In this document: positions 1 through 6,507 of the stretch, one piece after another
Position numbering within the stretch: the first letter of the stretch is position 1
How the letters are laid out: each line of letters opens with the position of its first letter
Source of the DNA: an uncultured Lachnospiraceae bacterium
Lineage (GTDB): Bacteria > Bacillota > Clostridia > Lachnospirales > Lachnospiraceae
DNA length: 15,925 nt
NCBI GenBank assembly: GCA_937915975.1
Contig: CALGGL010000213.1
Location: 1-15,925, forward strand
Reading direction: 5' to 3'
Program-made: the position numbers and the translations under genes
The notes under the pieces: generated by a model
The model's input: the letters and a program-made list of their open reading frames with translations, nothing else
Told to the model about the DNA's origin: nothing
Database searches by the model: none

Positions 1-472
1 TATCAATCCGGTTATAGTAAAATGTAATCTTATACAGCGCTTCCTCAATAGAACAGGAAACGTCAAAATAAGAAATTGCCTTTTTCTCAAATTGTTTTTG
101 AGCCGATACACCTATCTTTTTACATACGACGGCACGGCAGTCAAACAAGGAAGAAATCTTAAAGGAAACCTCTCCGTTTCCTCCGCAGCCGCCTCCGCCG
201 CCACAGCCGGCTCCCGAGCCGCAGCCGGCACCTGCCTCACAGCTCTCCGGTTTTAAATCACAGCCGGCACCTGATTCACAGCCTACCTGAACTGACTCTG
301 AGGTTTTTGCTGAAGCTTTACTATCAGCATCAGAAATATCTTCCACATCACGTTCTTCAATTTTCTTATAGGTCTTACCATCGGCTTCATAGATTATAAA
401 TCTCTTTGCCTGACCGAAGGTTTCATCGACATTTATTTCATCCGATGTTGCAACCGCTATTTTATAACTCAT
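1..472 (-). CDS. NifX/NifB-C-terminal-like cofactor-binding protein with Cys/Gly-rich insert (partial)
   Basis: An open frame of 157 codons runs from ATG at 472 off the left window edge, with GGGAG placed correctly upstream. The start (MSYKIAVATSDEINVDE, residues 1-17) and the later part (about 105-150, with LFDCRAVVCKKIG) match, by eye, the complete NifX-like protein encoded at 5283-5642, so this is a second member of the dinitrogenase iron-molybdenum-cofactor domain family. That family carries or stores NifB-made Fe-S clusters. Between the two halves is an insert (about 58-100) with six cysteines at 65, 71, 78, 84, 90 and 96, almost one every six residues, in a glycine-rich background with three GAGC repeats. 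The His before Phe-Gly found in the paralogue (HFG) is Thr here (TFG). It follows the nitrogenase-like K gene by 122 bp and is probably its last co-transcribed partner. A metal-binding or cluster-storage role for the insert is inference. The C-terminus is not in the window. Confidence 0.85.
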   Translation of the reverse strand, partial: MSYKIAVATSDEINVDETFGQAKRFIIYEADGKTYKKIEERDVEDISDADSKASAKTSESVQVGCESGAGCDLKPESCEAGAGCGSGAGCGGGGGCGGNGEVSFKISSLFDCRAVVCKKIGVSAQKQFEKKAISYFDVSCSIEEALYKITFYYNRID

Positions 473-507
473 ATCTATCTCCCGACTTACTAAAAGAAAA
501 GCCACCA

Positions 508-547
508 GCCGGTCACTTACAAATATAAAAGTCTGCAAATAACCGGC
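508..547. repeat. Short inverted repeat in the gap before the last nifX-like gene
   Basis: GCCGGT at 508-513 and ACCGGC at 542-547 form a 6-bp inverted repeat with a 28-nt AT-rich loop, between the nitrogenase-like K gene and the following nifX-like gene. There is no T-tract after it, so it is not a convincing terminator. It could be an mRNA processing or stability hairpin, or chance. The rest of the 122-bp gap shows only the ribosome binding site of the next gene. Confidence 0.25.
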
Positions 548-594
548 ATAGTTAACCTTAATTTAATCTCTAATCCGCTGCTTAATATAAAATC

Positions 595-4392: not shown

Positions 4393-5235
4393 TTATATCT
4401 GATAATCATCTTCCATGAGTCCGAACTCAAAAAGAATCTCCTCGAGTCTTTCCTGTGTCATAGGTGTAGGAATTGCAAAATTCTCATTGTTGATTACCGC
4501 CTCCGCAAGATTTCTGTATTCCTGTGCCTGAGCTGAATCAGGCTTATATTCTATAACCGTTTTCTTATTTATCTCAGCTCTTTGAACTATATTGTCTCTC
4601 GGTACGAAATATAAAAGCTGGGTTCCGAGCTCCTTGGCAAATGCACGAAGGAGGTCAAGCTCTCTGTCTACATTACGACTGTTACATATAATTCCGCCAA
4701 GTCTTACACCGCCGGTTCTTGCATATCTTTTTATACCCTTAGCGATATTATTGGCTGCATAAAGTGCCATCATCTCTCCGCTGGCAACTATGTATATTTC
4801 CTTTGCCTTACCCTCTCTTATAGGCATTGCAAAACCACCGCAGACAACGTCGCCGAGAACGTCATAAAATACATAATCCAAATCATCTGTATAAGCACCG
4901 AGGTTTTCAAGCATATTTATCGAAGTAATAATTCCACGACCTGCACAGCCTACACCCGGTTCAGGACCGCCTGACTCAACACATTTTGTTCCGCCATATC
5001 CCTCTCTCATAATTCTGTCAAGCTCGATATCCTCGCCCTCATCACGTATGGTATCAAGTACAGTCTTTTGAGCAAGTCCTCCAAGCAAAAGTCTTGTTGA
5101 ATCCGCCTTAGGATCACAGCCTACAACCATAACCTTTTTGCCGTGCTCGCAAAGTCCCGCAGTAAGATTTTGAGTTGTTGTTGACTTTCCTATTCCACCT
5201 TTTCCGTATATTGCTATCTGCCTTATTTCTCCCAT
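4393..5235 (-). CDS. nifH: NifH-like dinitrogenase-reductase (Fe protein)
   Basis: 280 residues, a full-length Fe protein that aligns almost without gaps to Azotobacter NifH. It has a P-loop GKGGIGKS at 11-18 and a switch region DPKADSTR at 41-48. The 4Fe-4S ligands C97 (GVGCAGRG) and C132 (DVVCGGFAMP) are numbered as in the classical protein. R100, the site of DraT ADP-ribosylation in NifH, is present. It works as a homodimer, binding one 4Fe-4S cluster between subunits and passing electrons to component 1 with ATP hydrolysis. The start is set by AAGGAC upstream of ATG. It precedes the cysK-like and D/K genes and follows nifB-nifX. The sequence alone, being very NifH-like, would be called nitrogenase reductase by most tools; the context says it serves the nitrogenase-like reductase here, so the symbol denotes homology, not nitrogen fixation. 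Confidence 0.93.
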   Translation of the reverse strand: MGEIRQIAIYGKGGIGKSTTTQNLTAGLCEHGKKVMVVGCDPKADSTRLLLGGLAQKTVLDTIRDEGEDIELDRIMREGYGGTKCVESGGPEPGVGCAGRGIITSINMLENLGAYTDDLDYVFYDVLGDVVCGGFAMPIREGKAKEIYIVASGEMMALYAANNIAKGIKRYARTGGVRLGGIICNSRNVDRELDLLRAFAKELGTQLLYFVPRDNIVQRAEINKKTVIEYKPDSAQAQEYRNLAEAVINNENFAIPTPMTQERLEEILFEFGLMEDDYQI

Positions 5236-5282
5236 TTTTTTATGTCCTTTCTGTCTTTTATTTTAATTTTTTAAAATTATTT

Positions 5283-5642
5283 TTATTCAAACAGCTTTTG
5301 AATTTCATCATATGAAATAATCTTATTTAATGCATTCTCTATGATATCCGGTATCTCCATCGCCGTTATACCGTTTGATTCAAGTATATTTACTGCCCTC
5401 GGACCTATCCGGCTGACCAGTACATATGCGCAATCCTTCAGGCTTTGCGCATTTTCAATAAGCCTTCCTTCATCATGATCGCCGCCCTCACATACCGGCT
5501 TAAGAGCTCTTCTTTCTATGTACTCAAAGCTTCTGTCTTCTAAAATCCCATATATAAGAAATGTATCCGCTTTTCCGAAATGCGTATTAACAACTATTTC
5601 GTCTGAAGAAGCAACTGCTACAAGATATTTATATTTATCCAT
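5283..5642 (-). CDS. NifX/NifB-C-terminal-domain-like protein (dinitrogenase Fe-Mo cofactor family)
   Basis: 119 residues, a single RNase-H-like domain of the dinitrogenase iron-molybdenum-cofactor family (NifX, NafY core, C-terminus of NifB). HFGKAD at 21-26 is the usual glycine turn with the cluster-binding His; cysteines are at 51 and 71, and VSRIGPRA (77-84) is the second conserved strand/turn. The NifB encoded just upstream lacks this domain, so the function that bacterial NifB often carries as a fusion is supplied here by a separate protein. Its ATG overlaps the nifB stop by 8 bp (5635-5642), with AAAGGAA upstream, so translation is coupled. Likely role: binding NifB-cofactor and handing it to the D/K protein. 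A paralogue with a Cys-rich insert lies at 1-472. Confidence 0.85.
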   Translation of the reverse strand: MDKYKYLVAVASSDEIVVNTHFGKADTFLIYGILEDRSFEYIERRALKPVCEGGDHDEGRLIENAQSLKDCAYVLVSRIGPRAVNILESNGITAMEIPDIIENALNKIISYDEIQKLFE

Positions 5643-6507
5643 GTGAAAATGTTTCCTTTACAGCTATTCTTCTTTGATATATCCGGTCACCGAATTCGGA
5701 CTTTCCGGGTACTCCCACCGCATCGGCACGACAGTGCTGACAGTGTCTGAATACATCTATATATTGGGATGCTTTTGTTCTCGCTTCATCAATCTCCCTG
5801 CAAACAGGAGCTCTTTCATTTTTAAGCTCTGCCTGAGGTATAAGAGGAATAATGTTATAAATACTTGCACCTGCCTCGGCTACCGTTCTCGCTATCTCTT
5901 CTATATGGTCGCCGTTTATATCCGGAACAAGTACTGTATTAATCTTTATGGTCATTCCCGCATCCGCCAGCTTTTTAATTCCTTTAAGCTGGTTTTCAAT
6001 CAGTATCTTCGCTCCCTCTGCACCTTCTATCACCTTGCCGTGATATATGATGTATTTATTGAGCTTTGCTTCTATCTCGGGATCAACCGCATTTACGGTT
6101 ACCGTAAGGGAATCTATACCAACCTCAAGTATGTCATCTGCCCTCTCATATAATAAAAGTCCGTTTGTGCTCATACACTTTATAAGATTGGGGAATTCTT
6201 CCTTAATAAGCTTAAAGGTTTCAAGGGCGTTGTCTGTCGCAAGAGTATCTCCCGGTCCGGCTATACCGGCAACCGTAATCTCCGGACAAAGGGAAAGCGC
6301 CTTCTTTAAAATGTCCAGACTTTCCTTTGGCTTAAGCACCTTAGAGGTAACCCCGGGACGCTCTTCCACGTCATTTATCTGTCTGTCACAAAAGGTACAG
6401 GCTATATTACACCCCGGACTCACCGGTAGATGAATTCTTCCAACATTATTCTTATGTCCTCCAAAACAAGGATGCGAATTTTGTAAATCCTTGTAGGTAT
6501 TGCTCAT
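5635..6507 (-). CDS. nifB: NifB, radical SAM cofactor-core synthase
   Basis: 290 residues, the short NifB form without a C-terminal NifX domain. The radical-SAM cluster motif is C33-x3-C37-x2-C40 (GCNIACTFC). NifB-specific signatures are HPCF (12-15, with C14), GRIHLPVSPG (23-32), AGPGDTLAT (83-91) and a C-terminal CQHCRADAVG (256-265, two cysteines) that hold the precursor 4Fe-4S clusters. NifB fuses these clusters and inserts carbon and sulfur to make the [8Fe-9S-C] core of nitrogenase cofactors. Its presence is the best evidence that the D/K protein here carries a nitrogenase-type complex cluster. The start has GAGG upstream and lies 28 bp from the tRNA-like gene. No nifE, nifN or nifV is in the window, so further cofactor tailoring may be skipped or encoded elsewhere. 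In Rhodospirillum rubrum the Mar locus likewise includes a NifB-like gene (from memory). Confidence 0.93.
   Translation of the reverse strand: MSNTYKDLQNSHPCFGGHKNNVGRIHLPVSPGCNIACTFCDRQINDVEERPGVTSKVLKPKESLDILKKALSLCPEITVAGIAGPGDTLATDNALETFKLIKEEFPNLIKCMSTNGLLLYERADDILEVGIDSLTVTVNAVDPEIEAKLNKYIIYHGKVIEGAEGAKILIENQLKGIKKLADAGMTIKINTVLVPDINGDHIEEIARTVAEAGASIYNIIPLIPQAELKNERAPVCREIDEARTKASQYIDVFRHCQHCRADAVGVPGKSEFGDRIYQRRIAVKETFSHG

Follow-up and report, generated by a model that had tools for sequence, protein, structure and literature searches.

Two nitrogenase-like enzymes have a known role in sulfur assimilation, the methylthio-alkane reductase (MAR) and Isr, as described in the accessible parts of PMC12552129 and PMC11423573. 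In the former, the MAR cluster ligands are given as Cys270 and His429, the pair Arg428-His429 is suggested as a hallmark, and Cys73, Gln74, His194, Trp195, Phe199 and His375 are described as surrounding the cluster. MarDK and NfaDK in heliobacteria are treated in the available text of PMC9147875, and the legend to Fig. 7 of PMC10418091 names CysK, PatB and MetB. The system considered here is a minus-strand operon (2-7618) in a stretch of 15,925 nucleotides from an uncultured Lachnospiraceae bacterium (contig CALGGL010000213.1; the whole stretch is called the window), in the order cysK1, a tRNA-Cys-like gene, nifB, a nifX-like gene, nifH, cysK2, the component-1 genes D and K, and a second nifX-like gene. 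The D and K proteins of this type are called D1 and K1. The operon is genuine and conserved, a MAR-like system with a clade to itself and an unexpected tRNA-Cys at its head, and, judging from sequence, it encodes a nitrogenase relative probably used by gut and rumen bacteria to break C-S bonds and pass the sulfur to cysteine.

Relationship of D1K1 to MAR

By sequence and fold, MAR is the nearest characterised enzyme to D1K1. Both subunits score far higher against the MAR structures than against NifD or NifK (Table 1; D also matches 9d9u, at 315 bits), and on the component-1 models D and K reach 143.9 and 99.3 bits, far below the nifD and nifK cut-offs of 653.55 and 427.3. An AlphaFold model of D1 (predicted local distance difference test score 81) has 9fmg_A as its best match, with template modelling scores of 0.87/0.91; because the alignments used to model D1, and the D2 protein described below, contained MarD rows, the fold matches of both are not independent of sequence. 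The identity of D to the canonical MarD of Rhodospirillum rubrum is 35%.

Alignment places the P-cluster cysteines of D at C52, C77 and C143 and the cofactor cysteine at C255. All three P-cluster cysteines of K are present in the alignment to the MAR K chain, and a crude motif test for the K1 P-cluster was positive in 72 of 78 K1 proteins. The initial annotation had already located the nifB, nifH and D/K genes with their P-cluster and cofactor cysteines and the NifB signature, and in this it is confirmed; its single cofactor cysteine is indeed present, but it missed the second ligand, a histidine in the pair R411-H412, inside a MAR-specific loop.

Conservation was followed in 199 D1 sequences, which are not independent of one another (79 open reading frames from loci, the window included, and 120 database proteins). 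The residue numbering in the accessible part of PMC12552129 agrees with the R. rubrum protein by alignment, and in that numbering C66, C91, C158, R428 and H429 are kept in all 199 and C270 in 198. The surroundings of the cluster are also largely retained, with W195 and F199 in 199 of 199 and H375 and Q74 in 197 each. At position 194 every D1 has Ile where 119 of 119 canonical MarD have His, and at position 73 Cys, found in 110 of 119 canonical MarD, is replaced by Gly (183), Ser (10), Ala (5) or Asn (1). The corresponding residues in the window's D1 are I179 and G59. None of the NifD residues Q191, H195, H442 and V70 is kept in D1. Identity with Isr was also rejected, as D1 has three P-cluster cysteines and a cofactor cysteine where IsrD, in the accessible part of PMC11423573, has one and none.

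Phylogeny of D

A tree of 73 D-type proteins was computed with IQ-TREE from 56 of 184 D-type open reading frames, nine Nif or unknown references and eight MarD, after dereplication at 87% and with a floor of 440 aa; L001-L004, L006, L116 and L146 were omitted as copies, and the set held no NfaD sequence. NifD and NifE form one group (eight rows, support 100/99), separate from 64 rows of nitrogen fixation-like (NFL) proteins (99/99). Within the latter, a clade of 41 rows (100/99) has the Arg-His loop in 40, the exception being Arg-Ala in L123, and its two branches are the window's clade (14 rows, 100/99) and canonical MarD with other subfamilies (27 rows, 99/98). Four rows of the tree carry a long-branch flag, among them L123, which lies in the window's clade. 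Uniting D1 with canonical MarD was rejected by the approximately unbiased (AU) test (p = 0.00665), as was uniting D1 with Nif (p = 0.016), the clades in both tests having been named only after the tree was seen. D1 is a sister clade to MarD and not a member of canonical MarBHDK. The phylogenetic check on D that the initial annotation had proposed has thus been run, and D does not fall inside the nitrogen-fixing clade. Nor is the division between D1 and MarD a taxonomic one, since canonical MarD (120 proteins listed, 74-100% identical to that of R. rubrum) is itself found in Clostridium, heliobacteria, Thermoanaerobacterium and Pelosinus.

Further D-type proteins were seen in passing. On two Treponema-type contigs the opposite strand holds another D1-like copy, which is divergent (47% identical; L062:18666-20129, L063:18403-19869); the loci L161-L200 hold many more uncharacterised NFL D subfamilies, some having loops with His and without Arg; and one genome (G368) has several D copies.

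Conserved gene order and the CysK slot

The search for relatives of D gave 242 stretches in genome contigs, of which the best 80, at 83-100% identity, were kept; by their titles these derive from Lachnospiraceae, Ruminococcus, other Clostridia and Treponema, mostly rumen and gut bacteria. Cultured carriers include [Clostridium] polysaccharolyticum DSM 1801 (L065) and Ruminiclostridium hungatei DSM 14427 (L039). The gene order of the window recurs, in whole or in part, across these best 80 of 242 contigs, and because the same order recurs the arrangement is far beyond chance. Among the 81 loci examined (the window, L005 and L007-L085), 76 have D at 80% or above; K comes next after D in 72 of these 76, and the NifX-like protein b (NifXb) second after D in 54. 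A CysK-like gene precedes D in 55 of the 69 loci with 1.3 kb upstream, and CysK1 directly precedes NifB in 40 of the 52 loci with room for it, the other 29 having no NifB or too little sequence. Under a looser rule and in a slightly wider set, 59 CysK open reading frames occupy the slot before D; a quick tree, with weak support at several forks, divides them into two lineages, both separate from CysK1, and in the aligned sequences both carry another sequence where ordinary cysteine synthase has the GIGAGF loop, GVHPFDGIP in the window's CysK2. CysK2 scores 325 bits against a cysteine synthase A cut-off of 351. A serine acetyltransferase family is present in 11 loci. In loci of the other NFL subfamilies, which are of unequal length, a CysK-, PatB- or cystathionine gamma-lyase (CGL)-like gene occurs in 18 of 31 and an ABC ATPase in 20 of 31. 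The sulfur setting of D1 loci is conserved, and the dedicated CysK may mark the product of the reductase.

An amino-acid-type ABC importer and an amidohydrolase lie near D1 or D2K2 in five loci (L005:16212-19998, L008, L009, L012 and L182), a possible hint at the substrate.

Nitrogenase genes in relatives and the D2K2 pair

Among the genomes compared, the one nearest to the window (G001, sharing 27% of 31-mers) has an array of the same genes on its contig C33. There NifXb is followed by a regulator of the Rrf2 family (closest to CymR, at 137 of 195 bits), a second component-1 pair termed D2K2, and genes for an HD protein, an ABC importer of the amino-acid type and an amidohydrolase; its four PF00148 matches are D1, K1, D2 and K2. 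In a survey of 200 genomes of the same family, D1 at 65% or above was found in 14, one of them (G549) partial. With D2 as query, and with every first-look candidate scored, 13 of these 14 relatives gave only D1, K1 and, in eight, D2 and K2, so that no NifDK or NifEN was found in them; the same search reaches more distant matches in other genomes (24-32% identity, not classified). NifV over cut-off was likewise absent from all 13, no control genome having it either. The reading implied in the initial annotation, that the system is not a nitrogenase, is upheld by this survey together with the position of D outside the NifD/NifE clade.

D2K2 lies at L005:12358-15104, past the low end of the window in relatives. 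D2 at 72% or above was found in eight of the 200 family genomes, all eight carrying D1 (hypergeometric 5e-11, relatedness ignored). D2 keeps the Cys ligands and has neither the Arg-His loop nor Trp195; the motif TTH[VI]LDG is present in 26 of 26 D2, its His being a candidate cluster ligand that is near but not aligned with NifD H442. K2 has three Cys motifs by eye. The possibility that D2 is NifE was rejected, its NifE score being 176 against a cut-off of 505 and its nearest solved chain MarD. In L084 (16288-17670) a LanM-like, lanthipeptide synthetase-related gene lies behind D2K2, and its protein cluster occurs in six loci.

An operon-borne tRNA-Cys

Between CysK1 and NifB lies a 70-nt tRNA-Cys(GCA)-like gene which, with the two NifX/NafY-like genes, had been missed in the initial annotation. 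It has the GCA anticodon and the cloverleaf of a canonical tRNA-Cys. The discriminator U73 is the main identity base for cysteinyl-tRNA synthetase. In 20 sequences of the operon-borne kind the discriminator is A73 in 11 and G73 in nine and never U73; ordinary tRNA-Cys end in U73 in 17 of 17 printed, by eye. A covariance model (R1) built from these 20 sequences, the window's own among them, matches at 76 bits or above in 25 of 88 sources searched, the next match being 50 bits; the gene is present in the window, at L005:4994-5063 and in 23 further loci. Pairing is kept in 99.1% of the paired cells across 19 distinct sequences, and nine of 18 pairs change on both sides. Among 500 shuffles none reached four of the five covariation measures, and the fifth, further pair types, was not raised (203 of 500).

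The odd tRNA is present at 19 of the 39 intact junctions in which CysK1 directly precedes NifB, and in Ruminiclostridium hungatei (L039) it precedes NifH. Among 25 genomes it was found at 85 bits or above in six of 13 with D1 and in none of 12 without; four of those six (G001, G474, G510 and G569) have an ordinary U73 tRNA-Cys elsewhere, and G445 and G579 showed only weaker matches, of 45 and 40 bits. At 62 bits or above it occurs in ten of the 200 family genomes, six of which carry D1 (p = 7e-6, relatedness ignored). Of the four genomes without D1, G551 has it ahead of a DUF2292 gene, MetK, a binding protein of the sulfonate type and a set of Isr-like HDK genes; in G548 its neighbours are PatB, CGL, an M20 amidohydrolase and, below cut-off, another binding protein of the sulfonate type; in G412 it precedes MetK and an ABC permease; and in G545 the match is at 62.8 bits. 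At least three other sulfur-type operons are headed by it (L265, L266, L267). In 398 genomes of the phylum and 143 of the class, searched with stricter filters, only G001 matched, although Ruminococcus and R. hungatei contigs do carry the tRNA. The tRNA as a mark of D1 alone was therefore rejected, given the four of ten tRNA genomes without D1 and the 20 of 39 junctions without tRNA; because it also heads operons in genomes without D1, it belongs to sulfur operons more widely and not to the D1 system only.

A link to T-boxes was not supported. Six tRNA-carrying genomes gave a list of 57 T-boxes, of which 30 were taken as loci (strict motif in 17, a looser motif in six more, none in seven, including L243 near a CGL gene), and none was seen to be a Cys T-box matching the discriminator; identified by eye, the genes that follow encode aminoacyl-tRNA synthetases, tryptophan and leucine functions and a transporter. 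No paper on a tRNA of this kind was among the open-licence PubMed Central matches listed, by titles and abstract starts.

The operon in G551 (L265:2937-12660) holds, behind the odd tRNA-Cys, DUF2292, MetK, an SsuA-type binding protein and IsrHDK-like genes whose D has one P-cluster Cys by eye; it is likely an isethionate-type operon in a relative.

A hairpin-terminator element behind DUF2292

In relatives the motif GACYRG-ANA-YYRGAGG, mostly followed by a T-run, lies behind an open reading frame for DUF2292 (YezD-like; PF10055, 68 bits for one typed example). The distinct sites number 66, and 32 directly follow DUF2292. Among the 61 sites in loci up to L199, 55 have a T-run within 110 nt and 59 a full 4-bp stem varying in step, and one mononucleotide shuffle of 120 loci gave no site. 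The pattern is not present in the window. Example sites are L013:6769, L015:6723, L041:9113, L165:547 and L192:2939, and the DUF2292 stop codon is often inside the element. Two sites tested against Rfam belonged to no family, with only weak chance matches; no credible solved relative of DUF2292 was found, and no paper on DUF2292 as a regulator was among the open-licence PubMed Central matches listed.

Proposed function and alternatives

D1K1 is likely to be an [Fe8S9C]-cluster reductase of the MAR kind, in a clade of its own, whose cleavage of a C-S bond serves sulfur assimilation. NifB, together with carriers of the NifX-like type, would build a cluster, putatively of the [Fe8S9C] type, to be held in D1 by Cys255 and His412, and a P-cluster at the D1/K1 interface would hand on electrons from the ATP-driven NifH. 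The cluster would then reductively cleave the C-S bond of a small organosulfur compound to give a thiol or sulfide, which the neighbouring CysK-type enzyme or enzymes may fix on O-acetylserine, presumably in the direction of cysteine, and the cystathionine enzymes (CGL-type, PatB) could move sulfur on towards homocysteine. The predicted role is assimilatory sulfur salvage and not N2 fixation. The initial annotation had pointed to a C-S-cleaving, sulfur-salvaging reductase on the precedent of MarBHDK: the conserved MAR ligands and sulfur setting are consistent with the former, and MAR stands as the nearest characterised enzyme, but membership in MarBHDK does not hold, in view of the 35% identity, the separate clade and the two changed residues. 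For the same three reasons a new substrate seems more likely than had been stated there.

Several observations weigh against this reading. Near the cluster, C73 and H194 are kept by canonical MarD and not by D1. NifH, not CysK, precedes D1 in 14 of 69 loci, although four of these 14 have a gap of about 0.9-1.1 kb in which a CysK open reading frame is visible. The role given to CysK2 is read solely from its position and altered loop; in some loci the available stretch lacks PatB, CGL or CysK1, and 13 of 31 other NFL loci have none of CysK, CGL and PatB. Gene context, moreover, cannot tell whether a sulfur compound is cleaved at a C-S bond or reduced in some other way.

It is rather unlikely that D1K1 is functionally a canonical MAR, converting dimethyl sulfide or 2-methylthioethanol to methanethiol and methane or ethylene, with its sequence differences due to drift. 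The ligands and most of the pocket are the same, and a possible methanethiol acceptor, a MetY protein of the O-acetylhomoserine sulfhydrylase type, is over cut-off in 13 of 13 D1 genomes; since MetY is over cut-off in nine of 14 control genomes too, this proves little. The separate clade in the AU test and the invariant Ile194 speak against this reading, the embedded partner is CysK-like and not MetY-like, and because canonical MarD exists separately in Clostridium and its kin, D1 is not simply the Clostridium-type version of MarD.

Reduction of another sulfur compound, such as a sulfonate or an inorganic or one-carbon sulfur species, directly to sulfite or sulfide would also suit a CysK rather than a MetY partner, and is somewhat less probable again. 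IsrBHDK, of the same superfamily, is tied to isethionate in the accessible part of PMC11423573, and a sulfonate-type binding protein or transporter part lies near some D1 or other NFL loci (L067, L085, L165). The window, on the other hand, has no SsuABC, and D1 has the P-cluster cysteines and cofactor ligands, where Isr, in that same part of the source, lacks two of the three cysteines and the cofactor ligands.

N2 fixation in the manner of the Group IV nitrogenase of Endomicrobium proavitum is highly improbable: N2 fixation by a Group IV system lacking NifEN is reported in the available text of PMC9147875, and D1 could carry a P-cluster and an Fe-only cluster, but identity as a nitrogenase was rejected on the NifD and NifK scores, the loss of all four NifD active-site residues and the position outside the Nif clade, the gene context is one of sulfur, and MAR is described as unable to reduce N2 in the accessible part of PMC12552129. 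Just as hard to credit is a scaffold role in which D1K1 matures the cluster for D2K2 as the real enzyme: D2 was found only in genomes with D1 (8/8), but six of 14 D1 genomes, one of them 72% complete, showed no D2 at 72% or above, and D1 carries the buried-cluster ligands of active MAR.

A wider proposal, offered as tentative, joins these elements. D1K1 would be a new [Fe8S9C] reductase that splits C-S bonds in Clostridia and Treponema of the gut and rumen, its product captured by a co-evolved CysK-like enzyme and not a methionine-salvage enzyme; D2K2 might take the product further to free sulfide; and a shared leader module of a non-canonical tRNA-Cys (A/G73), in several relatives behind DUF2292 and the hairpin-terminator, might tie sulfur operons to the supply of cysteine or sulfur.

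One 90% protein cluster of this clade is listed on 1000 contigs, and because its named entries mostly read 'nitrogenase', the D1 clade can be miscounted as N2 fixation. Cleavage of methylthio compounds, should D1K1 carry it out, would give the rumen a bacterial source of methane, ethylene or thiols; otherwise D1K1 would provide the [Fe8S9C] cluster with a new substrate. A dedicated tRNA-Cys common to several sulfur operons would, if true, represent an operon-borne tRNA, or tRNA mimic, of a new kind.

Neighbouring genes and features of the window

The full minus-strand order is LysR, cystathionine gamma-type enzyme, PatB, CysK1, tRNA-Cys-like gene, NifB, NifXa, NifH, CysK2, D, K and NifXb, which meets the window edge; a MetNIQ-like importer lies upstream of this array (Table 1). 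The sulfur-related flanks named in the initial annotation stand in part, CysK1, PatB and MetI (217.8 bits, cut-off 212) being over their cut-offs and CysK2, the cystathionine enzyme (several models, every one below), MetQ (214.6 against 228.85) and MetN (361 against 499.7) falling short. The description of the LysR regulator as methionine-type was not borne out, CidR being its best NCBIfam match. NifB scores 265 bits on TIGR01290, below the cut-off of 343.65, over model positions 9-278 of 441, and is without the C-terminal NifX domain. The open reading frame of NifXb runs from a TTG (2-538), with the ATG at 469 as the likely start, and its Cys/Gly-rich insert varies in length and is GCGSGAGCGGGGGCGG-like (window 2-469; L005:11290-11733). 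The hairpin before the tRNA is followed, in the minus-strand sense, by TTTCCTTT, and was not called a terminator on that strand.

Table 1. Positions of genes and other features in the window, with the evidence for each.
Feature	Position	Strand	Evidence
NifX/NafY-like protein b (NifXb), Cys/Gly-rich insert, cut by window edge	2..469	-	TIGR02663 nifX 39 bits, TIGR01290 41 bits
K subunit (K1), MarK-like, 432 aa	595..1893	-	PDB 9d9u_C (also in 9fmg) 393 bits vs NifK 90
D subunit (D1), sister of MarD, 487 aa	1893..3356	-	9fmg_A 317 bits vs NifD 124; tree; AlphaFold model
Arg411-His412 of D1 (MarD R428-H429)	2121..2126	-	Alignment; 199/199 D1 sequences; ligand role from accessible part of PMC12552129
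Cys255 of D1 (MarD C270), cluster ligand	2592..2594	-	Alignment; 198/199 D1 sequences
CysK2, divergent O-acetylserine sulfhydrylase-like pyridoxal phosphate enzyme in slot before D	3368..4357	-	52% identical to CysK1; below cysK cut-off
NifH/MarH-type ATP-dependent reductase	4393..5235	-	TIGR01287 463.8 bits, cut-off 394.35
NifX/NafY-like protein a (NifXa; Nitro_FeMo-Co domain)	5283..5642	-	PF02579 67.3 bits
NifB-type radical SAM protein (predicted cluster core maker), 290 aa	5635..6507	-	TIGR01290; PF04055; CNIACTFCD motif read in sequence
tRNA-Cys(GCA)-like gene, G73 in place of U73	6536..6605	-	ARAGORN; Rfam tRNA 43 bits; model R1 91.2 bits
Palindromic hairpin directly before tRNA	6623..6648	.	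Terminator-like by scan on + strand only
CysK1, cysteine synthase A	6680..7618	-	TIGR01139 451 bits, cut-off 351
PatB-family C-S lyase, start likely slightly inside	7775..8998	-	TIGR04350 450, cut-off 340
Cystathionine gamma-synthase/lyase-type enzyme	8949..10115	-	PRK07671 450, PRK06176 441, both below cut-off
LysR-family regulator, family level only	10190..11230	-	PF00126, PF03466; best NCBIfam match CidR 84.8 vs cut-off 415
MetQ-, MetI- and MetN-like ABC importer	12001..14538	-	MetI alone over cut-off

Comparison with known systems

No paper describing this clade, the CysK slot or D2K2 was among the open-licence PubMed Central matches listed, by titles and abstract starts. The Mo-, V- and Fe-only nitrogenases share with D1K1 the fold, the P-cluster cysteines, NifB and NifH; D1K1 differs from them in the absence of NifEN and of over-cut-off NifV from the 13 relatives, in having none of the nitrogenase active-site residues and in a different loop for the His ligand. 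IsrBHDK, in the accessible part of PMC11423573, resembles the proposed system as a nitrogenase-like C-S cleavage for sulfur assimilation under anoxia, and the odd tRNA recurs with an Isr-like operon in one genome of the family surveyed. It differs in that IsrD has one of three P-cluster cysteines and no cofactor ligands, and in that IsrB is not NifB-like.

The Group IV-A NFL genes near type I mlp clusters, as treated in the available text of PMC10418091, are MarHDK-like genes in or near sulfur and methionine clusters of anaerobic Firmicutes, and in this they are similar to the D1 loci. They are linked there to corrinoid methyltransferases, D1 being set beside IV-A by description only, and that text offers for IV-A neither an analysis of ligands nor a test of clades, and describes no CysK slot, D2K2 or tRNA.

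MarBHDK of R. rubrum (PDB 9fmg, 9d9u; accessible part of PMC12552129) is alike in its NifB-H-D-K set and six P-cluster cysteines, and also in the cluster Cys, the Arg-His loop, Trp195, Phe199, His375 and a role or setting in sulfur assimilation. The D1K1 operon is unlike it in the CysK-like gene between H and D, the separate NifX-like genes and the tRNA-Cys-like gene, and some relatives have the second pair D2K2. D1 itself is 35% identical to MarD, falls in a sister clade and has Ile at the position of His194 and mostly Gly at that of Cys73.

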